NCBI RefSeq assembly: GCF_004210375.1
Contig: NC_134828.1
Span: forward strand, 23,738,400-23,802,399
DNA: 64,000 nt
Origin: Tachypleus tridentatus
Lineage: Eukaryota; Arthropoda; Merostomata; Xiphosura; Limulidae
Direction: 5' to 3'
Shown: one piece after another, positions 1,775-27,481 of the stretch
Position numbering within the stretch: position 1 is the first letter of the stretch
How the letters are laid out: each line of letters begins with the position of its first letter
Position numbers and translations under genes: made by a program
The notes under the pieces: generated by a model
Told to the model about the DNA's origin: nothing
Databases searched by the model: none
The model's input: only the letters and a program-made list of their open reading frames with translations

Positions 1775-4700
1775 CTGAAAAAAAAACTTATATTTATTAC
1801 AAATATTTTATTTTACCCGAGTAATGAAACACAGTAAATAAAATTCATGAAAAAATTATAAGTAAGTAATTAAATTAATAAAGAGCATAATTAATTGTTT
1901 GGGTAATAGTTTAAAACTATAAATCTTCGTTTATATAAGATGAAGAGATATTCGTAACATGATAAAAACAAAGAAATTTACGAGCTTTAAGTATTGTCAT
2001 TTTAAGCTTTTAAACTTACTTTAAATAAATCTCTTTCTTTTGAACATATGGAGATATAAATGGAGGTTTACAATAATTGTAACGTTTCAGTTACTTGTTT
2101 ATACCATACTCCACAATTTTAGTTTGAACGCTACTCAGTGCTGCCACCTTTTGGGTTAATGATAAACTTGAAAAAAAGTTTATAAATAATTTACATACCG
2201 TATGCAAATAACTAGTAATTGGCTAATTATATAATATGTTTTACGTTTATGTACGTATCCAAGTAAAGTTTAACAAGAATTGACGTAACTATCAAAACAT
2301 TTATTTTTATTTATCTTTTAAAGGAAAACAAAATTACCAGCCACATTTAAAGTTAACTTACCTGACTGTTCCACTAGCTAGTATTATGTATACCAGCAAG
2401 ATGCATGTACTAGTAAGAAAGGCTGTGTACGAGCTGCGAACAAATATCATTAAAGCAATGGTCTGTTGCTCGGCAAAGGTGTAAACTGCCCATAACACTC
2501 CGCAAAAAGTAGCCCACCTATCCCAGTCTTGACGTAAACGTGTTCCTCTTGAAATTATTATTAAAAAAAAAAAAAACAACAACGGAAGTTGTGAATAAAC
2601 AAATCGAGAACATTTAACGAACCATTAAAAGAAAAGAAAAGATATGTTTTGTTATAGTCATCTGATAACTCTTTGGACTTATAACACTAAAAATCGAGAT
2701 TCGATTGCCGTGGTGTGTAAAGCAGAGATAGCACATTGTGTAGCTTTGCGCTCAACAACGATAAATAACGAAACAACACGATAATCTGAAAGGGAGGAAT
2801 AATAAATGAATGCAGGAAATAGCAATTGCACATTTGGTTATCGTGATCCTGCTAGCTTCTGTACTGATGGGAATAGTATGCAGTTGGTTCATGATCCCAT
2901 GAGAAACGTTACTTCTTAGTAAACACAAATGACGTTTAAAATACGTATATTTTAAAACGTTAAACGGAGGAAGGATAACCATGGATCTTCATCAAACTGT
3001 CGTTTTTAAATTATTCATTGAATTTTTAATTTGTTTGTTTATAGGCGTAAAGCTTCACAGTGGGCTATCAAAAGTACAACATTCGCAGGTATCGAACTTA
3101 TTTTTAACGTTATAAGCCCTCTAGCTTGCCATTAAGTCACAAGGGAACTTTTTCTTTTTTCCATTAAATTATCATGATATTATACGTTAGTATGGTTTAT
3201 AAACACTACAGAAGTAATATCACTTTAGATATACTATTAACGACCAGAATTAAAATTTATATAAAAGTTTGGGTCAACGTATTTCGTACCATATTCGATT
3301 CAGTTCACTTATGTTTAACAAAAAAAACAACAACAAAAGAACTCGGATGACGGACTCATTATATCAGTAAGAAATAACAATATAGAAATAACTTTTACTT
3401 ACGTATAAATGATTGTTGCCCCGGCCCAGACTGTCATAAGATTTAGTGGTACACTACAAACGATACGACTTAATATAAACAATGGCCCTCGATACATGCC
3501 TTGGCGAGACTCATTGTAATATCTTGTCCGATGCACACCATCTGGTGAATAAACTATAAATGTGTATTTGTGACACTTCACAAAACCTATTCAACGATTT
3601 CTTACTTGCTACTTTCACTTAACACTAAAACCCTGACAATTCATATATCACACAAATATCTATTAAGCCTAATAGTCCATAATGGCAGAACCGAGGGGAC
3701 TAGTTCCCTCTAAATTTCGAGAGGTTTATGATTTGCACAACTAGATTTCAGTTTTAATTATAAAATGATAGCTCATTAATAAATAGGCAGACAATCTAAA
3801 AGTGATGTAATCCTTGAGGAACAAACAAAAAGAGCCGAGAAGATAAAAGATGAGATTATGTTAAAAAAGTAGAAGGTAAATGAAACTGTTTAAGTTAACA
3901 TAAAAGTCGCCTGTTGTATTTTTCTCGTATCGTGATGTCTCCTCCATTCGAACAAATTTGCCTCCGAGGCCCAAATAAACTTGATACAATTTGTTGCCAT
4001 CCTGTGAGATACGATGCAAAAACAGATTAACATTATAACATTCCGAAACTTTATTAGAACATAACGAACTCTTAAAGTACAAATGAGTCATACTAGCCAC
4101 ACGGTTATTGTGCTTTCTGAAACTGACAAGTTATAATTTAAACCTACAATGCTTATTTTATTGTGCAGCTGACACAATTTGCCAACAGTTTTAGAAGGAT
4201 TCTGTTATTCATTTGGAAAGGACGTCGTCAAGGCGACGTTACTAAGGCAAAGAGGAATAAAAAAGAAACCTCGGAGGTGTAAGTTACTCTCTAATTTATA
4301 CACTTACAACGATATAATTTTAAAAGTTACTTTACTCCGAATATTTTAAAAGCTTTAAAAGTTTTAACTTACAGGTCAGTGCTGTGATTCCTGCTCCTAG
4401 AAGAGATATTCCGACTAGACAGTTGAACAGCAAACCATTTCGTGAAATGTAACTCTGTTGTGTATTTCCCAATGGAAAATACAACAGGTAGAGAATGGTG
4501 AAGAAAACAGGAAGCGCCACCACGTGGAGAGTAAGGCGCTCGAAGGCGCTGTTGTTGACGTTAAATAAAGACGTAAATGATCTTCTGTAAATAGGCAATA
4601 AAACGAACAAGACGGTGAAAAAAGATAATAAAAATAAACTTCTATAATAAACGTAAAAGACCCCTAGTGGGACAGCGGTAAATCTACGGACTTAAAACGC

Positions 4701-10700: not shown

Positions 10701-13700
10701 ATTACCATTAAATGCAACTTTATTGAATGTCCGGTTGATAATTTCTAAAATAATAGGTTAATTGTACATTTAATGCTTGAGACTTATTCAATATATGCTT
10801 TTTTTTCTCTCGTAAACTATTTTCATAAAGCGTTTAGATCTACATTTACCAAATATTGGGATTATTATTTTAGAAGAGGTACCAGTTGTCATACAGACAC
10901 CTATAAGACCCAGCTTAGATTACAAACACCCCTCATGACCTGAATAAATGTTGGATGAAATTCAAATTTATAATTTTCAAATTTTCCATCTTCCCGATGA
11001 AGACTTCTGAATTTCAAATTTTCTTTCGCTATTGAAATGTTCACTATAGCTGGCAATCACTGTTAACTGTTGAATAAATAACAGGGGGGAAGCTCACGTG
11101 AATTAAACAAGAAAAGAGATGATATAACGAAGTAATCATATAAAACCAACAAAATATTTCTGATACAAATTACTATTTAAAATATGCATACATTATATGA
11201 AATAAAAACTTAGACCACACATTTTAATAGAACATTCATCACGATTTCAACGTTCTACTCTATACGGTCTCTGTTTCGTCTATACACCTACAATGTATAA
11301 CAACTCCGGGCTTGTGAAGTAGCTATTAAAGAAGGTTAGGCCTCCGAATGTTTGTTATATCTCTTTCTCTGTGCGTATATTTTGTATTGTTTTAGTAAGT
11401 ATACTGATTTTCAAAGTGAGGAACTTGCAGATATAATGTATTTAAATGAGCAGAAATGAATAAAAAATCAATCACGATATTTTTGTAATATTAGGGCTAA
11501 TAAACTTTGAAGATGGAAAGCAATATTGCATTAAATGTGGGACATTAAGCCTAATATACTTTGAAAATTAAATGGTGTATTACATTAAATCTGTATTATT
11601 AAGGCCAATGAACGTTGAAATAAAATATTATAATGACCTAGAACATTAGCAAGATGAAACATTATGTCATTGATTAGACTCCTTATTTATTTATTTTATT
11701 TTAAATTTAACTGTTTTGTTTTTCATGAACACAATTAAATATTCTACATTACAAGTTGCAAAGTTATTAGCTCTTGTTGAAGAGACTTGTAACTAATACA
11801 GTGATGGGTTATATAATATTTCAGTTGAGTAAACAATAATTATTACTATCGGAACATTAAGGATTATTAATTAACCATTACCGAAGTTTAAATGTTATGA
11901 CGGACATGAGTTATTTTCTAAAAGTTACCTGTGTACACTACATCTCCGAGACACAGATAAGTCACTCGGTCCAAAAATGGAAAAATGTCTGATCTTGGTT
12001 GGTCTATGCTGATGATAGCAATGCGTTTGTACTTTTTAGCATGATTGGACAGGCTAGATAAGATGAAATAGCTGTTTAAAGGATCCACTTCGTAGGTAGG
12101 TTCATCCAAGAGTACAAGAACTGTCGAAGAATAATTAAATTATTAAAGACCAACATTTTAAGGGTTGATGTCTTCCAACAGCGATAAACATATTAATCTG
12201 ATCCTAAAAAAATTGGAAAACAAGAGTAAGATGGTTCGATATCGGTAAATAACAAATACTCTTCTGTAATAATATTAGTATAGACTTTAAACTTCTGAAA
12301 AAAACAATAACTTCAGACTCTTCATTTTAAAAGTCCATTAAGTATTAAATGAATCTAGTTTTAACGAACATAGTTCAGTATGTCTTAATCACGCTACCTG
12401 GATTGCGCACTAAGAAACGTGCTGCGAAAGGATTCCATGATAGAAAGGAGGAGGAGTTGTGTTTATGTCCGTGCTAATCTCAGCTAGCGTGTAAATCAGT
12501 CAAACTGTATTGACCTTTTATTATAATACAAAATTTTTAGATATAAGGAATCATTTGAAGCGTATATAATTGATACGTTTGCTACTTCAATAACATAAGC
12601 TTTGTCTCATAACGTTCCTCTTCCTACATTGGACTATCTACTGACTGACAGACATACAAAAAAGTTAAAAATACAAAGACAATGGCCTGCAGCTATGCAG
12701 ACACACGGATAAATAGATTTATAATATAGCCTAAAGTAAGGCACACATAAGGATAAGTACATTTACAGTATGACCTGGAGGAAACCATAGTTATGGACAA
12801 ATACAGTACTAGTACACGAACGGTCTGAAGTTTAGTATATAATAATATAATATGTATTTATTAATGACACATCTACTAAGGCTATTTGCAACGGTTCTTA
12901 ATTTTAAGCGAGGGAAGGGCAGCCAGTCAGGAACTCCCACACACCACCTACGTTAAAGGACTGACTGTCACTTTTATAACGCACTCACAGGGAATATGCC
13001 ATGTCATCGCCAGATATGAATTCGATACTTCAGGTCCGAAATGAGTATACTAGTAGAATAATTTATTTCTTGTTAATAAGTAACCCTGCATGGTTAAGGC
13101 GCTTCACTAGCATTCTGAGGGTCAGAAGTAAAAATGCCTGTCCCACCGAATATGCTCGTTCTTTCAGCCGTAGGAGAGTTATAATGTTGCAGCCATTCTC
13201 ACTATTCGTTGGTAAAAGAGTAGTCCAAGAGTTGACGTTGGGTAATAATGACTAGATGCCTTCCCTCTAGTCTTTTGCTGTTAAATTAGGAACGGATAGT
13301 ACAGGTAGCCCTCGTGCATCTTTGCGCGAAATTCAAACAAACAATTGTTGTTAAGCGCAAAGCTACACAGTGGGCTATCTGTGCTGTGCCTATTATAAGT
13401 ACCTAAACCCGAGTTTGGTACAAAAAACATGGCTATATTATCAAAGCTACACGGTGGGCTAGCTGTGCTGTGCCTATTACAAGTACATAAACCCGAGTTT
13501 GGTACAAAAAACATGGTTATATAATCAAAGGAAACGTGAAAGTAATAAATATTTTTTGTGTATTTTAAACAATTAACACGTGTTGTTATGACATAAGTTC
13601 TGAAACAACAATACTTGTGTACTCTAAACAATGAAAGAATCTTGTTGCAACGTAAGTTCTGAAACAACAATACTTGTGTACTCTAAACAATGAACGAATC

Positions 13701-16700
13701 TTGTTATGAGATAAGTTCTGAAACAACAATACTTGTGTACTCTAAACAATGAATAAGTCTTCTTATGACATAAGTTCTAAAACAGTAACATTTGTGTGCT
13801 CTAAACAATGAATAAGTCTTCTTATGACATAAGTTCTAAAACAGTAATACTTGTGCACTCTAAATAATGAATAAGTCTTCTTACGACATAAGTTCTAAAA
13901 CAGTAGTACTTGTTTGCTCTAAACAATGAATAAGTCTTCTTATGACATAAGTTCTAAAACAGTAATACTTGTGTATTCTAAACAATGTATGTCTTCTTAT
14001 GATGCAAATTCTAAAACAGTAATACTTGTGTTCTCTAAAGAATGAACAAGTCTGGTTGTGACGCAAGTTCTAAAACAACAATACTTGTGTATTCTAGACA
14101 ATGAACAAGTCTTCTTATGACAAATGGTCATAAATTTGAGAACAATTTGATGATTGTCATCAGTTTTCTTGTACTTAACATGCTATTAAATTAATTAAGA
14201 CTCCGACGTTCTTAGTGAGGACAATTCTGATAGATTGCTGCTTTAGTCTGTTTTGTTTTTTCCTGATGACTAAGAAACCTTGACCAGAAGTTGTCGTATG
14301 TCTACAAAGTGTCAAGCAGTACTTACCAGGATCTTTAACTAGTTCCGTTCCGATGGCTAAACGTCTGTAATCACTGACAGCGAGAGTGCTGACTTCTCTA
14401 TCGGACACCTGGTTCAAGGCTAAGTCTGTCATGACTTGTTTAACCTAGATGGAAAGCAATCGAGTTATCCAGCACACAAAAAGTACCGTGAGAGGTTTAC
14501 AGATACGACCTCGCGTGACTGTTGTCTATTTCGTAATAGGTATCGTTTGAACCCAAACATTCAAATACTTATGTTTCTCGGTGTGTATTATTTTATTATT
14601 ATTTAATATTTCTTGTGATTATATTTATAACCACAATGTTAACGTTGAGAAGAGGTTTTATTCTATTACTTTATGAGAATAATTGTAACAGTTATCGACA
14701 TTTTTCCACAACATTACTGTGTTGAACAATAGGGTTAGCTGACACTGGGTTTGGAAAAGGTACTTATCGAAAACATTTATTCATTGCTTGTTATCCTTTG
14801 TATTCATGACCTCATGTTATCGAAAACATTTATTCATTGCTTGTTATCCTTTGTATTCATGACCTCATGTTATCGAAAACATTTATTCATTGCTTGTTAT
14901 CCTTTGTATTCATGACCTCATGTTATCGAACACATTTATTCATTGCTTGTTATCCTTTTATTCATGACCTCATGTTATCGAAAACATTTATTCATTGCTT
15001 GTTATCCTTTGTATTCATGACCTCATGTTATCGAAAACATTTATTCATTGCTTGTTATCCTTTGTATTCATGACCTCATGTTATCGAAAACATTTATTCA
15101 TTGCTTGTTATCCTTTGTATTCATGACCTCATGTTATCGAAAACATTTATTCATTGTTTGTTATTTTTTGTATTCATGGCTTCATGTTCTACGTTTCAAC
15201 TTAACATCTATGTTTTCATAACTTGTTATCTTACATTTTCATGAGTTGATATCTTATGTTTACATGACTTGAAATCAAATTATTTCATGACTAGATATCC
15301 TATGATTTCATTATTTGTTATTATATCTTTATATCCTTTGTTTTTTAGTACTTGATGTTCTGTATATTCGTAACTAGATATCCTACGTTTTTGTGACTTT
15401 ATATCGAATGTTGTTCATTAATATTACATTTATCAACTTAGGACGGTGCAATCCTTTGTAACGTAGAACGACTACCATACATACAAAATGTTGAAATAAC
15501 TATGTAACTAAATATTAACCATTCTATGGTTACATTTATCACATTACGGTTACTGTATATCACACGCATTTGTTTCTAGTGATTGTGAACGGATATATAC
15601 AAACAGTACAAACTTGTATCCCATCTGAGAGAAACTACATGATAACACTGGCACAAAAATCTGTTCGGTGTATTTTGTTGTTTTTGAAACAAATCAACAA
15701 TATTACATTGTATTTTGTCGCATGGCTAAATAATTTTACAAACTTTACGTAGGCTACTAACACATGAAAGAAACACGTTTCACTTCCCTCATTTTTACAG
15801 TATAACAGATAAACTTAGCTTCCCTTTCACCCATCCTTTCCAACAAATTTAGTCAATCGTGATACATTGCTGTAACACACAACTTTGAAGAGAAAAGAGT
15901 CTATAACACGGCACTTACCCGGCTTTACTGTAACACACAACTTTGAAGAGGAAAGAGTCTATAACACGGCACTTACCCGGCTTTACCGTAACACACAACT
16001 TTGAAGAGGAAAGAGTCTATAACACGGCACTTACCCGGCTTTACTGTAACACACAACTTTGAAGAGGAAAGAGTCTATAACACGGCACTTACACGGGTTT
16101 ACTGTAACACACAACTTTGAAGAGGAAAGAGTCTATAACACGTCACTTACTCGGCTTTGCTGTAACAGATAACTTTGAAGGGGAAAGAGTCTATAACACG
16201 GCACTTACCCGGCTTTACTGTAATAGATAACTTTGAAGAAGAAAGAGTCTATAACACGTCACCTACCCGGCTTTACTTTAATAGATAACTTTGAAGGGGA
16301 AAGAGTCTATAACACGGCACTTACTCGGCTTTACTGTAACAGATAACTTTGAAGAGGAAAGAGTCTATAACACGTCACTTACCCGGCTTTACTGTAACAG
16401 ATAACTTTGAAGAGGAAAGAGTCTATAACACGTCACTTACCCGGCTTTACTTTAACAGATAACTTTGAAGGGGAAAGAGTCTATAACACGTCACTTACCC
16501 GGCTTTACTGTAACAGATAACTTTGAAGAGGAAAGAGTCTATAACACGTCACTTACCCGGCTTTACTGTAACAGATAATTTTGAAGGGGAAAGAGCCTAT
16601 AACACGTCACTTAACCAGCTTTACTGTAACAGATAACTTTGAAGAGGAAAGAGTCTATAACACGTCACTTACCCGGCTTTACTTTAATAGATAACTTTGA

Positions 16701-19700
16701 AGGGGAAAGAGTCTATAACACAGCACTTACCCGGCTTTACTGTAACAGATAACTTTAAAGGGGAAAGAGCCGATAACACGGCACTTACTCGGCTTTGCTG
16801 TAACAGATAACTTTGAAGGGGAAAGAGTCTATAACACGGCACTTACCCGGCTTTACTGTAACAGATAACTTTAAAGGGGAAAGAGCCTATAACACGGCAC
16901 TTACTCGGCTTTGCTGTAACAGATAACTTTGAAGAGGAAAGAGCCTATAACACGTCACTTACCCGGCTTTACCGTAACAGATAACTTTGAAGAGGAAAGA
17001 GTCTATAACACGTCACCTACCCGGCTTTACTGTAACAGATAACTTTAAAGGGGAAAGAGTCTATAACACGGCACTTACCCGGCTTTACCGTAACAGATAA
17101 CTTTGAAGGGGAAAGAGTCTATAACACGTCACTTACCCGACTTTACCGTAACACACAACTTTGAAAAGGAAAGAGTCTATAACACGTCACTTACCCGGCT
17201 TTACTGTAACAGATAACTTTGAAGGGGAAAGAGTCTATAACACGTCACTTAACCGGCTTTACTGTAACAGATAACTTTGAAGGGGAAAGAGTCTATAACA
17301 TGTCACTTAACCGGCTTTACTGTAACAGATAACTTTGAAGGGGAAAGAGCCTATAACACGTCACTTACCCGGCTTTATCGTAACACACAACTTTGAAGAG
17401 GAAAGAGTCTATAACACGGCACTTAGCCGGCTTTACCGTAACACACAACTTTGAAGAGGAAAGAGTCTATAACACGGCACTTACCCGGCTTTACTGTAAC
17501 AGATAACTTTGAAGAGGAAAGAGTCTATAACACGTCACTTACCCGGCTTTACTGTAACAGATAACTTTGAAGGGGAAAGAGTCTATAACACGTCACTTAC
17601 CCGGCTTTACTGTTACAGATAACTTTGAAGAGGAAAGAGTCTATAACACGTCACTTACCCGGCTTTACTGTAACAGATAACTTTGAAGGGGAAAGAGCCT
17701 ATAACACATCACTTACCCGGCTTTACTGTAACAGATAACTTTGAAGAGGAAAGAGTCTATAACACGTCACTTACCCGGCTTTACTGTAACAGATAATTTT
17801 GAAGGGGAAAGAGCCTATAACACGTCACTTAACCAGCTTTACTGTAACAGATAATTTTGAAGAGGAAAGAGTCTATAACACGTCACTTACCCGGCTTTAC
17901 TGTAACAGATAACTTTGAAGGGGAAAGAGTCTATAACACGTCACTTATCCGGCTTTACTGTAACAGATAACTTTGAAGAGGAAAGAGTCTATAACACGTC
18001 ACTTACCCGGCTTTACTGTAACAGATAACTTTGAAGAGGAAAGAGTCTATAACACGTCACTTACCCGGCTTTACTGTAACAGATAATTTTGAAGGGGAAA
18101 GAGCCTATAACACGTCACTTAACCAGCTTTACTGTAACAGATAACTTTGAAGAGGAAAGAGTCTATAACACGTCACTTACCTGGTTTCTTTTCATGGCGT
18201 TAGATACTTTGGATCCAATATTCAGTTCTCCTGCGTACATTAGAGTTTGGTGGACAGTGAGTCCAGGTATAAAGGGCACATTTTTGGGAACATAGCCACA
18301 CTGCTCTTGGAATAGGCGGGTGGACATTGGGACGTCATTCAAGAGAATTTGACCACGGGTAAGTCCCATAGCTCTTCGAGCTATTACCTCCAGTAAAGTC
18401 TTCTTTCCACTTCCTAGAAAATTTAGACCACATGGTAACTGGACTTTGTACCCTCCTGGCACATATTAACGTATACTGAGTGAATTTTGTACCCTTTTGG
18501 TATATGTTAAGGTATACTAACTGAAATTTGTGTTCTTGTGGTACATGTTAACGTATAGTAACTGGATTTTGTGCTCTTTTGGTACATGATAACATTTACT
18601 AACGGGTCGTTTTTTGCTCTTCTGGTACACGTTAACGTATATTGACTGGATTTCGTCAGTCTAAAGAACAGACAGACACAAAGACATGACTAAGGGAAAT
18701 TTAGAATATTAATTTCCTTCTCCTGATATTATCCTGTGTATGGTTATAGTTTCAGGAAGATCGTGGTTGGGATCCCGTTACCAAACATTCCCACCCTCTC
18801 AGCCTTAGGAGCGTGATAACGTTATAATGTGATGTCCAGTCCCACTTTTCATCAGTGAAAAATAGTCCCAAGAGTTGGTGGTCAGTCTATCGCTTTTAAA
18901 TTAGGAACAGTTAGCAAAGGTAATATGTGGACACCTTTCCTAATTAGTGGGCTCGACTATTTCAGCCACACCGATCGCTAACAGGCACATAAAATCAAGC
19001 AAACAGCCATTCAATCTCCATAGACAAACATTGGCAGTAGAATGGGTCGTACTGAAGAGCCCAGTGACTTTCAAGGTTGTACTGTCATAGGATGCCACCT
19101 TTCCAATAAGTCAGCTCATCCGATTTCTGCCCTGCTAGAGCTGCCTCGGTTAACTGTAAGTGCTATTATTGTGGAGTGGAAACGTCTAGGAGCAAAAACA
19201 GCTCAGCCACGAAGAGGTAGGCCACACAAGCTCACAGAACGGGACCACCGAGTTCTGAAGCGCATAGCGCGTAAACATCGTCCGTTCACAGTTGCAACAC
19301 TCACTACTGACTTCCAAACTGCCTCTGGAAGCAACGTCAGTACAAGAACTGTTCGTCAGAAGCTTCATTAAATGGTTTTCCATGGCGGAGCAGCCACACA
19401 CAAGCCTAAGATTACCACGCGCAATGTCAAGCGTCGGCTGGAGTGGTATAAAGCACACCGCCATTGGACTCTGGAGCAGTGAAAACGCGTTCTCTGGAGT
19501 GATGAACCACGCTTCACTGCCTGGCAGTCAGACGGACGAATCTGTGTTTGGCGGATGCCAGGAGAACGCTACCTACCTGAATACATAATGCCAACTGTAA
19601 AGTTCTATGGAGGAGGAATAATGGTCTGGGGCTGTTTCTCATGATTTGGACTAGGCTCGTTAGTTCCAGTGAAGGGAAATCTTAATGCTACAGCATATAA

Positions 19701-22700
19701 TGAAATTCTAGAGAATTGTGTGCTTCCAAGTTTGTGGCAACAGTTTGGGGAAGGAAGGCTCTTTTTGTTTCAGCATCATAACATTGCCCCGTGCACAAAG
19801 CGAAATCTATGAAGACATTGTTTGCCAAGGTTGGTGTGGAAGAACTTGACTGGTCTGCACAGAGCCCTGACCTCAACCCCATTGAACAACTTTGGGATGC
19901 ATTGGAAAGCCGACTGCGAGCCAGGCCTTCTCACCTGCCATCAGTACCCGACCTCACTAATGCTCTTGTGGCTGAATAGGAGCAAATCCCCGCAGCCATG
20001 TTCCAAAATCTAGTGAAAAGTCTTCCCAGAAGAGTGGAGATTATTATAGCAGCAAAGGGGGGGACCAACTCCATATTAATACCCACGGTTTTGGAATGAG
20101 ATGTTCAACAAGCACACAGAGGTGTGACGGTCTGGTGTTCGCATACTTTTGGCCATGTAGTGTAGCTCTTGAGCAGTTTCGTGCAAAATTAAACAAATAA
20201 GCAAAACCAAGAAACAGGGCTAGTGCCTACTGCCAGTAATTATGATTGTATCGTCATTCGATAGGGCAAAACAGTTTTTATGAGCTTTGACTACCTATTT
20301 TATTTTATCATTCTGTGCAAAATTTATAAAGCTTAAGAATATACTCTACAACCCAGTAACCCCTGTACGCCATCTTACAAAAAAAATTAAACAAACAAGT
20401 TTAAGGTAAAAAAAATGGGCACTTCTCATTTCACACATAAATAATTTTAACGTTATAGTTCGAGATAATGGCAATGTTTGTACACTGACAGAGAAGTCAT
20501 GTTTATTGTAGTCAATTCATTAGGTGAGTTCAAACACTCTCATATTTAAACATTACCCTAGTCCCTAAACCACGAGGCATCAAGTGTGATAAACATTACC
20601 CTAGTCCCAAAACCACGAAGATTTAAGTGCCATAAACAAATCCTATCTTCCTAAAAGTATCTCATGTGCGAAAACAAAAAGGAAATATATGAAGGGGGAA
20701 CTTTCTCTGTCAGAAGTAAAGTCTAAAATAGTATTCCTGATACAGCATGTTTACTAGAAGTAAACAATATTTATTAAAAATGAAAAATAAATTAATGAAT
20801 GCTTCTATTGAATCATTTATATTCTCTCTACGATTATGTCTACAATTTTCAATCACATATTCCAGGTATCGGTATTTAGGTCTTGTAGACCTGAAAGGAT
20901 CAGTTTCTTGTGTTCCAGATATCAGTATTTAGGTCTTGTAGACCTGGAAGAGTCAGGTTCTTGTGTTCCAGATATCAGTGTTTAGGTCTTGTAGACCTGG
21001 AAGGGTCAGGTTCTTGTGTTCCAGATATCAGTGTTTAGGTCTTGTAGACCTGTAAGGATCAGGTTCTTGTGTTCCAGATATCAGTATTTAGGTCTTGTAG
21101 ACCTGGAAGGGTCAGGTTCTTGTGTTCCAGATATCAGTGTTTAGGTCTTGTAGACCTGTAAGGATCAGGTTCTTGTGTTCCAGATATCAGTGTTTAGGTC
21201 TTGTAGACCTGTAAGGATCAGGTTCTTGTGTTCCAGATATCAGTATTTAGGTCTTGTAGACCTGGAAGGGTCAGGTTCTGAAGATCTCTTTTTCCCTCCT
21301 GCACTTGTTTAATATCTGTTCTATGTTTACTTAATTACTCGTAAGAGGGCTAGAGTTTAACTAGTCCACTTTTTTACTCTAACTACGTTTAGGGTGAGGA
21401 TCATGTATGTAACTATATTAACACTGCTGTGTTGAATACATTTTCTATTACGTTAAAGTCCACACCACACCAACCGATCCCATTATACTTTTTACATTTT
21501 AAATTTTGGCAAGAGTATTTACACCTAAAAACAGTTTTTAATGATTTCGCAGTAAATTGTATATATATATGTCTAGTTTTAGGAAATCTTAATTTATTTT
21601 TATTCCTAATATAAGTGTTAATAGTTAGAGGTACTTAGGACTATTTTCGTCGAATATCCATAAACGGTCGAGCTCACACAGTAGATTATTATTATGCCAA
21701 TTTTTCGCGAAATAATTTAGCGAACTGTGTTTTTATATTCGCGTATTGATGTGTAACTATTGAGGAAACTCATTTAAATAATCTGTATGTTGTTGTAAGC
21801 AGTGTGCTCTGTAGTTTTTGTAATTTAGGTTTAATTTGTTCTATTGCTTTGTTATTCATAAATGTTTACTACGTTTCTAGCCGATGCTCTGCTATTTTTA
21901 CCTGTTAGACTTATAAAGTTCGTGTGCTGCCAGTCTTTGGTCTTGACATTGCTTAAGTGTTCAATCCATGTTAAGTTTGTGTCATATATTAGGCCTAGCT
22001 GATGTTTTCGTCTAGAGCAGTGTTTCATTTATATCCAGTTCTGTAGTGTCTATTTTTTTTCTGCGTTTAGTTAATTTTGCGAAAACGACTAATGGAGTTT
22101 TAGGTACTTTGATTTTTAACTTGATATTTTTGGCAGTATTCTTTTATTTCATTAAGTTGAGGTTGAATATTTGTAACTGCGATAAACAATATGGTAACAA
22201 CTTTTCCAAACTGCTACACCATCTGCGAACTGCGACGAATACCCATGATTCTCATCATTTAAAGACATGTTGTTAACGTACGTGGCGAACAGAAGAGGGT
22301 TAATCACTCCTCCGTGTGGGATAACTGCCTCCTGAATAAAAGAGTCCGAGAAGGTTCTTTCAGCATTCATTTAACATTTTCTATTTTCCAGAAAGTTGTT
22401 TTTGTTTTAATTTCGCGCAAAGCTACTCGAGGGCTATCTGCGCTAGCCGTCCCTAATTCAGCAGTGTAAGACTAGAGGGAAGACAGCTAGTCATCACCAC
22501 CCACCGCCAACTCTTGGGCTACTCTTTTACCATCGAATAGTGGGATTGACCGTCACATTATAACGCCCCCACGGCTGAAGGGACGAGCATATTTTGGTGT
22601 GACAGGGATTCGAACCCGCGATCCTCGGATTACGAGTCGAACGCCTTAACTCGCTTGGCCATGCCGGGCCTCAGAAAGTTGGATAACCATAATTGATAGA

Positions 22701-25700: not shown

Positions 25701-27481
25701 AGTCGAGTGACCTCATCACCAGGCCAGGCTCCTTCCCAAAGAAAATGTCATTAGGACTACAAATATCATGTCGCTATTCATCATCAAGAGATATCGATTA
25801 ATATAAACGTTATGTTAAATTACTAATAAAGTTGTAGGTAAAAAGTTAATGGTGCAATTATTCGGTTTATTATTCTCAAACTTACTATATGTGTTGTTAT
25901 TTCTTCAACATTTCGAGCGGTGTGTTCTCTGACCGTCGTCAGATATATTAAACATTTTTTTGTAAATGCTATTTATGTACTTAACAGGAATCGAAATCCC
26001 GAACCGAGGATCCCGAAAACGGGCGCCTTAACCACTCTTCTATCAGAAGGCTGTAATATTTCTCTTGACAGGGATTTCGATTTTAAACCATATTACTTCA
26101 AACTCTAAAAGGAATGCGAGGCCAAATGTAACCATGGGTTTTCAGAAATAAGAATTTCTTTTCGTCCCGCCCACAATACGGTATAACCAGATTGGTTAAT
26201 AACTTGAACTGTTATTGATGGGGTAAAAGCTACAAAACGGTTGTTATATTGTCATATCTCTTTAAAAATAATAATTTGGAAAAGTGGTTTTAACAAGCAG
26301 AAGGTACTTCAATCCCACTGGACCACACCTTTGGGCACAACAAAATTCAAGCCCACTGGACCACATCTTTGGGCACAACACAATTTAAGCCCACTGGACC
26401 ACACCTTTGGGCACAACACAATAAGCTACCTTCTTTTATAGTTTTATACTGCTCTGAGAATACCGAAAATTTGGGTAGGGATGGATAGATCCAAATACCC
26501 TTAATTTTGATGTGGTAATCCATCGTCCATGCTAAGACCCTTCAAGGATCTAAACTTATCTCTGTCTCAGACCTTTTCAGGGGTTTCAAAACTAACTACG
26601 TTCTTCGCTGGTCACCCCTAATGCAATCATTACTACCATATTCACAAGGAGGTTGTGAGTTATACAATAATTCCTGATGCAACACCAGACGATGTCCGGA
26701 GAACTCGCTAGAAGAAATATTACGAAACTAATAAAACTGATAATAAAGTCCAGAACGACAGTCCAAATATTTATACCGTTAGTAATAGTGACATCTCGTC
26801 TCAATCATTCTGTTAAATTACAGGAAGCTACAGAATAACTCAGGCATAAATCAGGTTAGGCATAGTTGTTTTAGTGTTAACGCGTTATTCTTTACAGGCA
26901 TACTGCAAGAAAAAAAAAACACCTTACCGAGAATATCTCACTGCTGTAAGATCCGTTTGAGAATACAGGGGTATGACAATATCGGTATTTCATATCTGGA
27001 ATATCTCATTGATACATAGTTGTTTTGAAAGTATGTGGGTGTGATAATATAGGTATGGTCTATCTGAATTATCTCATTGACACACAAATGTTTTGAAAGT
27101 ACAGAGGTATTACAGCATTTGCATGATTTCACTACACGTTAACAAAACTTATAAAATCCACGTCTAAATCTGTTGTACTTTTAATAATGAAGTTATTTGA
27201 ATTTTTCTAGTACAAATAAAGTGCGTTATTACGCTACTAGAACGAAACCTAACTGTAACACACAGTACTAAAATGATTTTATCGTAATGCTAAAAAAACT
27301 TGTCGTTATTACCTTTAGAGCCAAGTATTGCCATCACTTCTCCTGCGTGGACTTCAAAAGTTACATCTTTTAAAATAATTCCCATAGGAGCGGATCCCAG
27401 GATTTTCTGGACGTACGACCCTCCGCCGACCTGTCCCATGTGGAAGACACTAATTAATTCTAACACGTGGTCACCATCCAT
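1402..27481 (-). CDS. ABCG8-like: ABCG5/ABCG8-type half-transporter, ABCG8-like, ten exons
   Basis: This spliced gene encodes about 644 residues if the ATG at 27481 is used; human ABCG5 and ABCG8 have 651 and 673. The order is the reversed ABCG layout: nucleotide-binding domain (about 1-240), linker with the family sequence [10 protein letters not shown] (about 267-276), then six membrane segments (about 357-374, 389-409, 432-457, 470-493, 497-517, 608-634). The large loop before the last segment carries Cys573 and Cys582 and two N-glycosylation sequons, NMT (564) and NGT (586). ABCG5 and ABCG8 act as a heterodimer that exports sterols across the plasma membrane. Here Walker A reads GSKGSGKKT, the Q-loop Gln is Lys (100), LSGGE is LAVSD (155-159) and the H-loop His is Asp (213), while Walker B LVLLDEPT is intact. 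I infer an ABCG8-like subunit needing a catalytically normal partner, which is not in this window. All junctions are GT..AG and in phase. ABCG5-like remains an alternative name. Confidence 0.88.
1775..2361 (-). other. ABCG intron 9
   Basis: 587 bp of AT-rich intron. I recognise no repeat or exon in it. Confidence 0.6.
2362..2547 (-). CDS. ABCG exon 9: membrane segments 4 and 5
   Basis: Junctions are ttcaag/AGGAACA and GTCAG/gtaagt. It encodes residues 459-520 with [14 protein letters not shown] followed by two hydrophobic stretches and the family end LASGTVR. It is in phase with its neighbours. Confidence 0.88.
2548..3402 (-). other. ABCG intron 8 with SINE-2 remnants
   Basis: 855 bp. Two decayed short-SINE pieces are visible: about 2690-2765 (+ strand, 'agcacattgtgtagctttg') and about 3040-3145 (- strand, 'cttcacagtgggctatc'). 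The rest is unremarkable. Confidence 0.5.
3403..3553 (-). CDS. ABCG exon 8: membrane segment 3
   Basis: Junctions are catttatag/TTTATTC and TATAC/gtaagt. It encodes residues 409-458. [17 protein letters not shown] is the ABCG cytosolic helix (E-S-x-x-G-x-Y) leading into the third hydrophobic segment. Confidence 0.87.
3554..4372 (-). other. ABCG intron 7
   Basis: 819 bp. No repeat family recognised. A small perfect hairpin (acgtcg...cgacgt) lies near 4222-4239. Confidence 0.5.
4373..4584 (-). CDS. ABCG exon 7: membrane segments 1 and 2
   Basis: Junctions are cctatttacag/AAGATC and CTGACCT/gtaagt. It encodes residues 338-408: the amphipathic RRSFTSLFN start, a first hydrophobic segment (about 357-374), the sequence SRNGLLFN and a second segment ending GAGITALT. 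Confidence 0.88.
4585..5508 (-). other. ABCG intron 6 with three decayed short SINEs
   Basis: 924 bp. Pieces of the short SINE family are recognisable at about 4662-4765 (+), 5155-5250 (-) and 5305-5405 (-), from their A-box and B-box remnants and 'gctgtg' tail sequences. All are old and lack clear target-site duplications. Confidence 0.5.
5509..5728 (-). CDS. ABCG exon 6: linker between ATPase and membrane domains
   Basis: Junctions are catattag/TGTGTCTG and TTATGCG/gtagca. It encodes residues 265-337. [17 protein letters not shown] is the hallmark sequence at the end of the nucleotide-binding domain in ABCG5/8 relatives, followed by a polar linker and [11 protein letters not shown] leading to the membrane domain. 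Confidence 0.88.
5729..6773 (-). other. ABCG intron 5 with a short tandem copy and hairpin motif
   Basis: 1045 bp. Near 6446-6490 'aaaaattcgctgaaacttca' occurs twice in tandem. It is followed by a hairpin, gacc-gaagaa-ggtc, and 'gaaacgttgttc' (6491-6513), the motif also found in the inverted-repeat elements near 38.3, 39.4 and 49.7 kb. Confidence 0.55.
6774..6854 (-). CDS. ABCG exon 5: end of the nucleotide-binding domain
   Basis: This 81-nt exon has junctions tgtgtacag/GTAGCAC and TACTATT/gtaagt. It encodes residues 238-264, including [20 protein letters not shown]. The F-x-x-x-G-[FY]-x-C-P-x-x-x-N-P signature of ABCG proteins is clear. It fits in phase between exons 4 and 6. Confidence 0.88.
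7745..7900 (+). repeat. Dispersed direct repeat, copy A
   Basis: Shares long blocks with 9727-9890, such as 'aattaacagttataagaaaa', 'cgaaaacatc', 'catcttcagttaggctt' and 'acgtaaatcgtcag'. It carries a perfect palindrome, aactcttaaagagtt. No coding capacity is seen, and the family is unknown to me. Confidence 0.75.
8723..8837 (-). mobile_element. Short tRNA-derived SINE (subfamily 3) with target-site duplication
   Basis: On the minus strand it has a tRNA-like head with B box 'ggggttcgattcc' and a tail that ends in 'gctttgctataagaaaa' plus CA repeats. The 11-bp direct repeat acttttgtagg at 8712-8722 and 8838-8848 is the target-site duplication. Confidence 0.85.
9727..9890 (+). repeat. Dispersed direct repeat, copy B
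   Basis: Second copy of the repeat at 7745-7900, in the same orientation about 2 kb away and in the same intron. The palindrome here reads aactctagagagtt. The two differ by scattered substitutions and small indels, so the duplication is old. Confidence 0.75.
11929..12120 (-). CDS. ABCG exon 4: Walker B, D-loop and H-loop
   Basis: Junctions are tcttcgacag/TTCTTG and ACACAG/gtaact. It encodes residues 174-237. Walker B is LVLLDEPT with the catalytic Glu180 present. The D-loop region reads YEVDPLNS instead of SGLD. The H-loop reads [10 protein letters not shown], with Asp213 where active ABCG proteins have His. Confidence 0.9.
12905..13060 (-). mobile_element. Diverged SINE-1 fragment
   Basis: Recognisable on the minus strand by degenerate central-body sequence ('gagggaagggcagccagtca' on the plus strand) and a weak B box. 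No flanking repeats are visible. Confidence 0.45.
13084..13344 (+). mobile_element. SINE-1 copy, near full length but diverged
   Basis: It has the tRNA-like head ('catggttaaggcgcttcact'), the body 'cactattcgttggtaaaaga' and 'gagtagtccaagagttg', and the tail 'ctttgcgcgaaattcaaaca'. Order and length match the family. Confidence 0.75.
13345..13505 (-). mobile_element. Two partial SINE-2 copies in tandem
   Basis: The block 'aaagctacac(a/g)gtgggcta' through 'cccgagtttggtacaaaaaa' occurs at about 13357-13430 and again at 13444-13514, suggesting local duplication of a truncated short SINE. Confidence 0.6.
13550..14125. repeat. 59-bp minisatellite, about nine to ten copies
   Basis: 'aagttctgaaac' or 'aagttctaaaac' recurs every 59 bp from 13595. 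On the gene strand the units read pyrimidine-rich sequence ending TTTCAG or TTTTAG, so they resemble weak splice acceptors. Confidence 0.9.
14327..14444 (-). CDS. ABCG exon 3: degenerate signature motif
   Basis: Junctions are tccatctag/GTTAAAC and GATCCTG/gtaagt. It encodes residues 135-173. The position of the ABC signature (LSGGE/Q) reads LAVSD, followed by YRRLAIG and ELVKDP, which align with the ABCG consensus RRRVSIG and LV-DP. The exon is in phase with both neighbours. Confidence 0.88.
14768..15180. repeat. 53-bp minisatellite, about eight copies
   Basis: 'cgaaaacatttattcattgc' recurs every 53 bp from 14768, nearly identical between copies, one with a 1-2 bp deletion. The last copy is diverged and blends into AT-rich sequence. 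Confidence 0.95.
15871..18180. repeat. 58-bp minisatellite, about 40 copies, abutting a splice donor
   Basis: Each 58-bp unit contains 'gaaagagtctataacac', 'cacttacccggctttactg' and 'taaca(gat/cac)aacttt'. The phase shifts by two bases per 60-base line, confirming a 58-bp period over about 2310 bp. The right edge coincides with the exon 2 splice donor at 18180/18181. Read on the gene strand, each unit gives CCGG/GTAAGTG preceded by TTACAG and a pyrimidine tract. Variants alternate at several fixed positions (gcac/tcac, gagga/gggga, acacac/acagat), suggesting higher-order shuffling. Confidence 0.97.
18181..18413 (-). CDS. ABCG exon 2: Walker A completion and Q-loop
   Basis: Junctions are attttctag/GAAGTGG and AACCAG/gtaagtg. 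It encodes residues 57-134. The split Gly57 completes Walker A as GSKGSGKKT, with Lys61 in place of the Mg-binding Ser/Thr. The Q-loop reads [10 protein letters not shown], with Lys100 in place of Gln. [15 protein letters not shown] is typical of ABCG proteins. The donor is directly followed by the 58-bp repeat array. Confidence 0.9.
18760..18922 (+). mobile_element. SINE-1, left part, interrupted by a Tc1-type element
   Basis: Contains the SINE body ('cgttataatgtgatgtccag', 'agtcccaagagttggtgg', 'aaattaggaacagttag'). It stops at a TA at 18921-18922 and resumes at 20163 after the transposon. Confidence 0.8.
18923..20162 (+). mobile_element. Tc1/mariner-type DNA transposon, decayed
   Basis: About 1.24 kb. 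The right terminal inverted repeat is 'cttttggccatgtagtg' (ending 20162). The left repeat is incomplete, beginning at 'atatgtggacacc', so its outer ~17 bp are missing. TA dinucleotides flank it, and SINE sequence lies on both sides. The interior encodes a Tc1 transposase broken by stops and a frameshift. The sequence closely resembles, from memory, a Tc1 family abundant in fishes and lampreys. Confidence 0.88.
19042..20099 (+). pseudogene. Tc1-type transposase, inactive
   Basis: The ATG at 19042 opens a frame with the paired-like helix-turn-helix DNA-binding part ([20 protein letters not shown], then [10 protein letters not shown]). The frame is closed early by TAA at 19369. Translation continues in the same frame after the stop and then meets a TGA at about 19480 and another at about 19642. 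A one-base loss near 19786 shifts the rest into another frame, which is cut again by TAG at about 19977. The catalytic triad is Asp (WSDEPR), then a His where the second Asp is expected (QHHN), then Glu in [10 protein letters not shown]. Intact family members have about 340 residues. It cannot mobilise itself. Confidence 0.88.
20163..20203 (+). mobile_element. SINE-1, right part, after the Tc1 insertion
   Basis: 'tagctcttgagcagtttcgt' followed by 'gcaaaattaaacaaataa' is the SINE tail. With 18760-18922 it reconstructs one SINE split at a TA target. Confidence 0.75.
20865..21285. repeat. 53-bp minisatellite with internal palindrome, about eight copies
   Basis: 'aggtcttgtagacct' recurs every 53 bp from about 20877. 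AGGTCT and AGACCT are perfect inverted repeats around a TGT loop, so each unit can form a 6-bp hairpin. The end of each unit is 'caggttcttgtgttccagat'. Confidence 0.95.
21660..22375 (-). mobile_element. 3' part of a jockey/CR1-like LINE, decayed
   Basis: The minus-strand frame at 22370-22152 contains a reverse-transcriptase palm: [17 protein letters not shown] followed by [12 protein letters not shown]. The catalytic FADD has become FADG. The lower part (21.7-22.1 kb) resembles the region at 40.8-41.1 kb, which belongs to the same family. The 5' part is missing. Confidence 0.75.
22399..22671 (-). mobile_element. SINE-1, full length, with target-site duplication
   Basis: The complete element runs from tail ('aatttcgcgcaaagctact') to tRNA head ('ggccatgccgggcc'). 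The flanking repeat cagaaagttg at 22389-22398 and 22672-22681 is the target-site duplication. It sits immediately beside the LINE fragment. Confidence 0.92.
22698..22815 (-). mobile_element. Truncated, rearranged SINE-1
   Basis: 'gactagagggaaggcagcta' is followed almost at once by degenerate head-like sequence, so the central body is lost. Confidence 0.5.
22903..23078 (-). mobile_element. Diverged SINE-1
   Basis: Contains 'caccgccaactctgagacta' and a decayed head ('ctaggccacgcttgcccc'). The tail is missing. Confidence 0.6.
23132..23250 (+). mobile_element. Short SINE (subfamily 2)
   Basis: Head 'ggcttcc..agcacagctg' type with B box 'gatttgatacccgtggtggg' and tail 'gtgtagctttgtgtttaatt'. Moderately diverged. 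Confidence 0.7.
23366..23643 (-). mobile_element. SINE-1, full length, with target-site duplication
   Basis: The tail is at the left and the tRNA-like head at the right ('gattcgaacccgcgaccctc'). The direct repeat tgtacagggtaa at 23354-23365 and 23644-23655 marks the insertion. Confidence 0.92.
24147..25110. repeat. 30-bp minisatellite grading into a 60-bp higher-order array
   Basis: At 24147-24540 30-bp units read 'gtgttaacactagatgga'. From 24541 two 30-bp variants alternate ('gtgttaacactagatag' and 'gtattaacaccaga/aatgga'), giving a 60-bp unit repeated about nine times, with a further A-A-B pattern in the 'caaatgg' variants every 180 bp. Each unit carries the palindrome gttaac or a one-base variant. 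Because 30 and 60 are multiples of three, long open frames exist on both strands; I do not consider them genes. Confidence 0.95.
25478..25733 (-). mobile_element. Diverged SINE-1
   Basis: Carries tail, body ('agctcgtgggctactcttta') and a decayed head ('accaggccaggctcc'). A short internal duplication of 'ctaattt' is present. Confidence 0.75.
26312..26425. repeat. 38-bp tandem repeat, three copies
   Basis: 'cccactggaccaca(c/t)cttt' followed by 'gggcacaacaca/aa' repeats three times with few differences. Confidence 0.9.
27313..27481 (-). CDS. ABCG exon 1 (first recognised): start of the nucleotide-binding domain
   Basis: The donor is TCTAAAG/gtaata at 27313. From the ATG at 27481 it encodes residues 1-56: a short lead with [18 protein letters not shown], then the first strand [20 protein letters not shown], which runs into the split Walker A. 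The frame stays open upstream of this ATG to a possible acceptor at 27497, so the true start may lie in an unseen exon. Human family members have 20-60 more residues before this strand. Confidence 0.82.

Follow-up and report, generated by a model that had tools for sequence, protein, structure and literature searches.

A tandem array of splice-donor words abutting an exon of an ABCG8-like gene in the horseshoe crab Tachypleus tridentatus

The closest described relatives of the element analyzed here, a 58-bp tandem array that abuts the second coding exon of an ABCG8-like gene of the horseshoe crab Tachypleus tridentatus, come from the human genome. The variable number tandem repeat (VNTR) in intron 18 of ABCA7 sits directly beside exon 18 and opens with the two bases of that exon's canonical donor (De Roeck 2018, PMC5954066); retention of a single unit, which is out of frame, is put at 2 +/- 1% (PMC5954066). 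IFI6, in turn, carries a minisatellite of splice donors. An earlier note, made from the letters of the horseshoe crab DNA, had stated that no described system was known with a donor amplified in such a manner; the ABCA7 VNTR (PMC5954066) and the IFI6 donor minisatellite contradict that statement. Our search of the literature, judged by titles and the starts of abstracts, found no invertebrate donor-site minisatellite. The array lies in a stretch of 64,000 nucleotides (positions 23,738,400 to 23,802,399 of contig NC_134828.1, assembly GCF_004210375.1), hereinafter the window, whose own numbering is used throughout.

Tandem Repeats Finder reports the array at 15870-18181 (period 58, 39.9 copies, 93% matches, 0% indels). 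Reckoned in units that each begin at the donor position, it is a minus-strand minisatellite of 40 units of 58 bp at 15861-18180, taking up 62% of the second intron (14445-18180, minus strand, 3736 nt). The units are contiguous and near-identical (mean pairwise identity 0.927 over 39 units), the last of the 40 having decayed at the far end. The array opens with the canonical donor of exon 2, which it adjoins, as placed by reading frame and homology: the true 5' splice site, CAG/GTAAGT, occupies 18175-18183 (minus strand; first intron base 18180), and exon 2 ends AACCAG/GTAAGTGACGTG with the array directly adjoining, exactly as the earlier note had described. That note had also put about 40 near-consensus donors behind the true one and the word GTAAGTG in nearly every unit. 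The tandem donors are real and, given the tandem structure, their density is beyond chance; however, the copies behind the true donor number 39, seven of them dead, and GTAAGTG itself is found in 31 of the 40 units. Across the whole array 33 units keep the GT (the 31 just mentioned and two with GTAGGTG) and seven have lost it (five TT, one AT, one CT), such that the 39 decoys divide into 32 with GT (30 GTAAGTG, two GTAGGTG) and the seven dead copies. The very first decoy, unit 2 (18065-18122, minus strand), starts with TTAAGTG and is a dead donor, and its whole sequence recurs in units 7 and 28.

The donor at which the array starts is very probably real, since exon 2 joins in frame with exons 3 and 4, the alignment to ABCG8 runs unbroken over the exon 2-3 junction and a paralog has the same border. 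The exons of the host gene, all on the minus strand, are those of an ABCG8-like half transporter. Exon 2, the second coding exon found (18181-18413, 233 nt), follows the acceptor TTTTCTAG/GAAGTGG and closes on the codons AAC CAG in phase 0; it is placed by its frame, an ABC_tran match (E 2e-06) and the ABCG8 alignment. Exon 3 (14327-14444, 118 nt; acceptor CATCTAG/GTTAAACAAG, donor CCTG/GTAAGTAC) aligns to both ABCG8 and the paralog, and exon 4 (11929-12120) is placed by its in-frame join and ABCG8 match. The coding part of exon 1 (27313-27481) runs from ATG to AAAG/GTAATAAC, its last base alone having entered the splicing check. The joined translation of exons 1-4 matches ABCG8 in chain B of PDB 7jr7, which we take to be the human protein, with E 2.6e-31 over query residues 37-238. 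Exons after the fourth were placed by eye from open frames; with them added to the phmmer query, ABCG8 is supported only over the exon 4 portion plus a handful of residues past it, and ABCG5 matches over a longer stretch. Accordingly, the gene model is tentative in its 3' half.

The paralog of exons 1-4 lies on another contig (C13) of the same genome (2.17 Gb in 205 contigs) and shares the exon borders: the border after exon 2 reads AAACGCAGTCGG/GTAATTAAT and falls at the matching codon, and exon 3 of the paralog starts AG/GTAAAGCAAG. Its second intron is 640 nt long (424-1063 of locus L040), and Tandem Repeats Finder reports no array therein; the one array reported near the paralog is a 55-bp repeat in 2.7 copies behind exon 4 (2868-3017 of locus L039). 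Thus, the 58-bp array would either have arisen after the paralogs parted or have been lost from the other copy. As a separate observation, exon 3 has no recognizable ABC signature, where the ABCG8 chain has LSGGERRRVSIG, and the signature is unrecognizable in both copies (window 14327-14444 and 1064-1181 of L040), which suggests a conserved degenerate ATP site in the two ABCG8-like genes.

We consider it likely that the array is a minisatellite anchored on the donor, seeded at the exon-intron junction, with the first donor being used and the other donors tolerated as decoys. Briefly, the proposed course of events is as follows. A segment spanning the exon-intron junction, or the first bases of the intron, would have been duplicated in tandem and then amplified through unequal exchange or slippage. 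Growth on one side would have been halted by the coding sequence of the exon, and this would account for an array edge that falls exactly at the donor. The spliceosome would then mostly pick the first donor, as it ends a real exon and offers the best U1 match. U1 may bind the later copies transiently with little effect, and the rare transcript spliced from one of them would meet a stop codon five residues on and be expected to undergo nonsense-mediated decay.

As to the origin, the growth of the array from the exon-intron junction, proposed in the earlier note, is borne out insofar as the array starts at the donor and junction duplication is the likeliest origin, while the likeness to exonic sequence is weak. 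AGCCGG, the six bases that close the unit, agree with the paralog's exon end, AGTCGG, at five of six positions and with the end of the array's own exon, AACCAG, at four of six; further, the single best match of AGCCGGGTAA within the 3.2-kb paralog locus (9/10) falls at the junction. Together, these matches weakly suggest that a small number of bases in the unit came from the exon at an older junction. The same note had named a relative's array lying well inside the intron as evidence that would speak against such an origin; the paralog, the sole relative compared, has no array there.

The variation between units gives some view of the dynamics of the array. There are 28 distinct sequences among 39 units, the order of variants is non-periodic, and exact runs of at least 120 bases between units number only four. 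Unit 1 is identical to unit 27, and an exact run of 201 bases that begins in unit 1 recurs 26 units on; hence, the unit that bears the real donor appears to exchange sequence with the interior. Given the seven dead copies in an array whose first unit behaves in this way, conversion could bring a dead donor to the real site, a hazard for the gene. Units 1-13, the third nearest the exon, depart least from the consensus, at 1.7 mismatches per unit as compared with 3.5 for units 14-26 and 2.5 for units 27-39, with the trend along the array not being significant (Spearman 0.29, p 0.07).

The strength of the sites was gauged from their pairing energies with the 5' end of U1. The true donor, CAG/GTAAGTG, scores -12.9 kcal/mol and is the best of the 40 sites; 27 decoys follow at -11.9 to -12.5 kcal/mol, five GT decoys are weak (-6.4 to -6.7 kcal/mol) owing to an A or T at position -1, and the seven dead ones fall at -6.1 to -6.6 kcal/mol. 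Minus-strand GT sites scoring -10 or better number 28 in the 2.32 kb of the array (12.07/kb) as against 16 in the rest of the window (0.26/kb). On the same scale the donors of exons 1, 3, 4, 5, 7 and 8 score -6.6, -10.5, -8.0, -6.5, -5.4 and -12.1, those of exons 5, 7 and 8 being placed tentatively, such that the 27 strong decoys outdo five of the six other placed donors of the gene. An AG at columns 48-49 behind a pyrimidine-rich stretch is also found in 34 of the 40 units, and 28 of the 40 have both GT and AG. In recursive splicing the site used (the ratchet point) is an acceptor AG followed directly by a donor GT; here, 27 pairs of an AG and the GT following it were counted, and in these the two are nine bases apart, which sets the array apart from such sites. 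The nine-base segments bear an in-frame TAA first in 24 of the 27, and CAA first in the other three, whose inclusion would add QSR in frame. Reading on past the phase-0 end of exon 2 gives VSDVL and then a stop, so that every later donor would lead to the same premature termination.

We also asked of the units whether the donor word is being purged or kept. Thirty of 39 units have all seven bases of the word, close to what is seen over the 58 seven-column windows of the unit (mean 28.2, median 28); hence, it decays like the rest of the unit, as neutral decay would have it. The GT dinucleotide is intact in 32 of the 39, which falls short of the 35.6 averaged across the column pairs, with eight of the 58 pairs lower still. 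Near the G at +1, discussed below, the columns T+2, A+3, G+5 and T+6 are constant across the 39 units, a pattern at odds with purging.

Several points weigh against the reading of a junction-seeded array of tolerated decoys: (i) over 12 bases the end of the unit matches either exon end at six positions, with no likeness beyond about 6 bp; (ii) the use of the first donor is inferred from sequence; (iii) the G at +1 is, alone among the columns, represented by all four bases in the 39 units, which is readable as selection against decoys, although with p ~0.003 taken alone and ~0.2 over 58 columns (a hand estimate) it amounts to a hint of purging that is unremarkable over so many columns; (iv) the longer the ABCA7 array, the lower the expression and the more frequent the skipping of exon 19, which reaches 45 +/- 10% in one brain area, where in 90% of samples the canonical transcript is outnumbered by the alternative ones combined (PMC5954066). 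With this precedent, the supposition that decoys have little effect may be wrong here too.

On the matter of origin, the foremost competitor is an array born inside the intron that spread to the exon edge, its own GTAAGTG replacing an older donor there. We rate this as a lesser possibility that concerns the origin alone and is compatible with any of the readings of function. It would sit well with the lack of clear exonic homology beyond about 6 bp and with the fact that minisatellites are common in this genome, their donor words occurring in line with anagrams of the same composition. Against it speak an array edge that falls exactly at the donor and exon-proximal units that are those nearest the consensus, with the caveat on that trend given above.

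Arrays are frequent in this genome. In a sample of 19 pieces of 10 kb, taken at round coordinates on five contigs, arrays with a period of at least 20 cover 27,254 of 190,000 bp; two pieces (L013 and L019) account for 17,753 bp of this coverage. The word GGTAAGT is in the consensus of none of the 27 sampled arrays and of two of the 18 arrays of the window; GTAAGT is in two of the 27. Across the whole genome, a pattern of three GGTAAGT words spaced 37-65 bp has 21,844 matches, the second highest of six when set beside five anagrams (9,949, 17,801, 18,768, 35,211 and 14,487); these counts are complete, but the matches are not independent, with many per array, and their order of magnitude alone is meaningful. 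As the count for GGTAAGT falls within the range of the anagrams, a genome-wide enrichment of donors in arrays is rejected: donor-word arrays are common because arrays are common, and donors are not favored. The perfect U1 word, CAGGTAAGT, has 390 matches as against 703 for its reverse, possibly reflecting selection against arrays of perfect donors, although its counts are clumped and GGTAAGT is not rare. What distinguishes the exon 2 locus is that its array coincides exactly with an exon border for which there is support.

We looked for further arrays that begin at an exon in the upstream flanks of 10 of the roughly 20 GGTAAGT arrays among the matches listed on contig C1, one of which (L034) was masked upstream and thus uninformative. 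One of the ten (L035) starts exactly at a GT with an open frame before it, and by our estimate about that many exact edges would be expected by chance. That array (C1:9642690-9643400, minus strand), with a 52-bp unit beginning exactly at GTAAGT behind a short open frame, is a candidate second donor-anchored array with a putative exon, which matches nothing in Pfam and reaches E 0.16 at best against PDB. Elsewhere on the same contig, an array at C1:1761700-1762480, continuing to 1762857 (L029), has a 65-bp unit that resembles a whole small intron, running from GTAAGTTAACAG to CATCCTCTCTTTCAG plus one G, with nine consecutive donor words among the matches listed.

On the matter of function, the array might instead act as a length-dependent brake, its donors titrating or stalling splicing so as to cut output or cause skipping of exon 3 in proportion to copy number. 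This we regard as unlikely, though it has points in its favor. The ABCA7 VNTR, whose growing length goes along with falling expression and more skipping of exon 19, and where alternative transcripts can outnumber the canonical one in brain, is one (PMC5954066); the decoy exons that hold back introns in OGT are another (PMC12017769); and the horseshoe crab array itself has 27 strong decoys and 28 units offering both GT and AG. Against it stands the decay of the decoy word at the pace of the rest of the unit, with no sign of upkeep. Moreover, the authors of the ABCA7 study favor transcription-factor or splice-factor motifs or chromatin over U1 titration (PMC5954066).

A more speculative idea, which we hold to be improbable, is that the array works as a copy-number dial. 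The 28 strong U1 sites in 2.3 kb (the true donor and 27 decoys) would hold U1 on the nascent RNA, and the array length would set the escape of the transcript from premature cleavage or stalled splicing. The U1 shielding on which this idea draws is known as telescripting. Some 0.7 kb downstream of these sites, intron 2 has a second array (14764-15188, minus strand, eight units of 53 bp), which holds nine of the intron's 11 minus-strand AATAAA hexamers.

Still less probable are extra donors that make alternative productive transcripts in the manner of IFI6, where two downstream repeat units act as donors and three mRNA species result (PMC4526556): every later donor here would add VSDVL and a stop, and the nearest decoy is dead. 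Least probable of all is an assembly artefact that inflated or collapsed the copy number, for while arrays are hard to assemble, the 28 distinct sequences among 39 units, their non-periodic order and the mere four long exact runs speak against it.

The window holds further arrays and gene borders. On the acceptor side of exon 2, an array with a period of about 41 or 82 bp (18436-18653, minus strand) ends 23 bp from the exon; we found no likeness between it and the 58-bp unit. A 58-bp array of 2.2 copies at 1299-1425 overlaps the point at which the final coding exon of the tentative gene model ends. The repeat unit contains the last codons and the stop codon, which would make this a second duplicated gene border. 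A plus-strand 61-bp array of 4.1 copies at 905-1153 has GGTAAGT in its consensus along with an acceptor-like word, TTCAG, and we identified no exon there. Kinship between the latter array and the 58-bp unit was considered on the basis of a 17-column local match that includes the donor word (p 0.033 on either strand, uncorrected over 22 comparisons) and is not relied on. Likewise not relied on is a crowding of arrays at the exon edges of the gene: three of 15 lie within 25 bp as against a random mean of 0.56 (p 0.017), with p values of 0.05, 0.21 and 0.07 at 2, 10 and 60 bp, the edges having been partly approximate (exon 2 was entered as 18422 and not 18413). Intron 1 harbors, at about 19020-20140, what by its reading frames is apparently a broken transposon, presumably Tc1/mariner-like. 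Scans of the window with Rfam, at the gathering threshold, and for tRNAs found nothing.

Returning to the junction-seeded array with a first donor in use, its place among known systems can now be outlined. The IFI6 minisatellite (Turri 1995) resembles it in offering several splice donors to one exon, IFI6 likewise being a human gene (6-16). The two differ in that downstream IFI6 units are reportedly used, yielding three mRNAs (PMC4526556), whereas the later donors of the horseshoe crab array would lead to a stop. The unit of the IFI6 array is 12 bp long. The decoy exons of OGT are likewise intronic splice sites that are recognized and rarely used (PMC12017769); in that case the decoy is a single cassette with weak 5' sites and not a run of tandem units that begins at the donor of the exon itself. 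The likeness to ABCA7 is the closest: in both, the array abuts an exon, opens with the canonical donor, belongs to an ABC transporter gene and has later donors that lead to a stop. Yet the ABCA7 unit is 25 bp long and C-rich, with 23.7 copies in the reference and alleles to about 10 kb, as compared with 58 bp and 40 copies here; retention of one unit is seen in ABCA7, whereas the next unit here is without a GT; and both length variation and splicing were measured in ABCA7, in contrast to the sequence of one assembly here. The horseshoe crab array is thus a further case of the ABCA7 kind and not new in kind. Nevertheless, donor-anchored arrays, of which human ABCA7 and IFI6 were the sole published examples that our searches turned up, now extend to a different kind of genome, with units longer and reference copies more numerous than in ABCA7; that genome also supplies its own control, in the form of a paralog without the array. 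As such, the locus is a natural test of how the spliceosome picks one donor among some thirty that are nearly equal.

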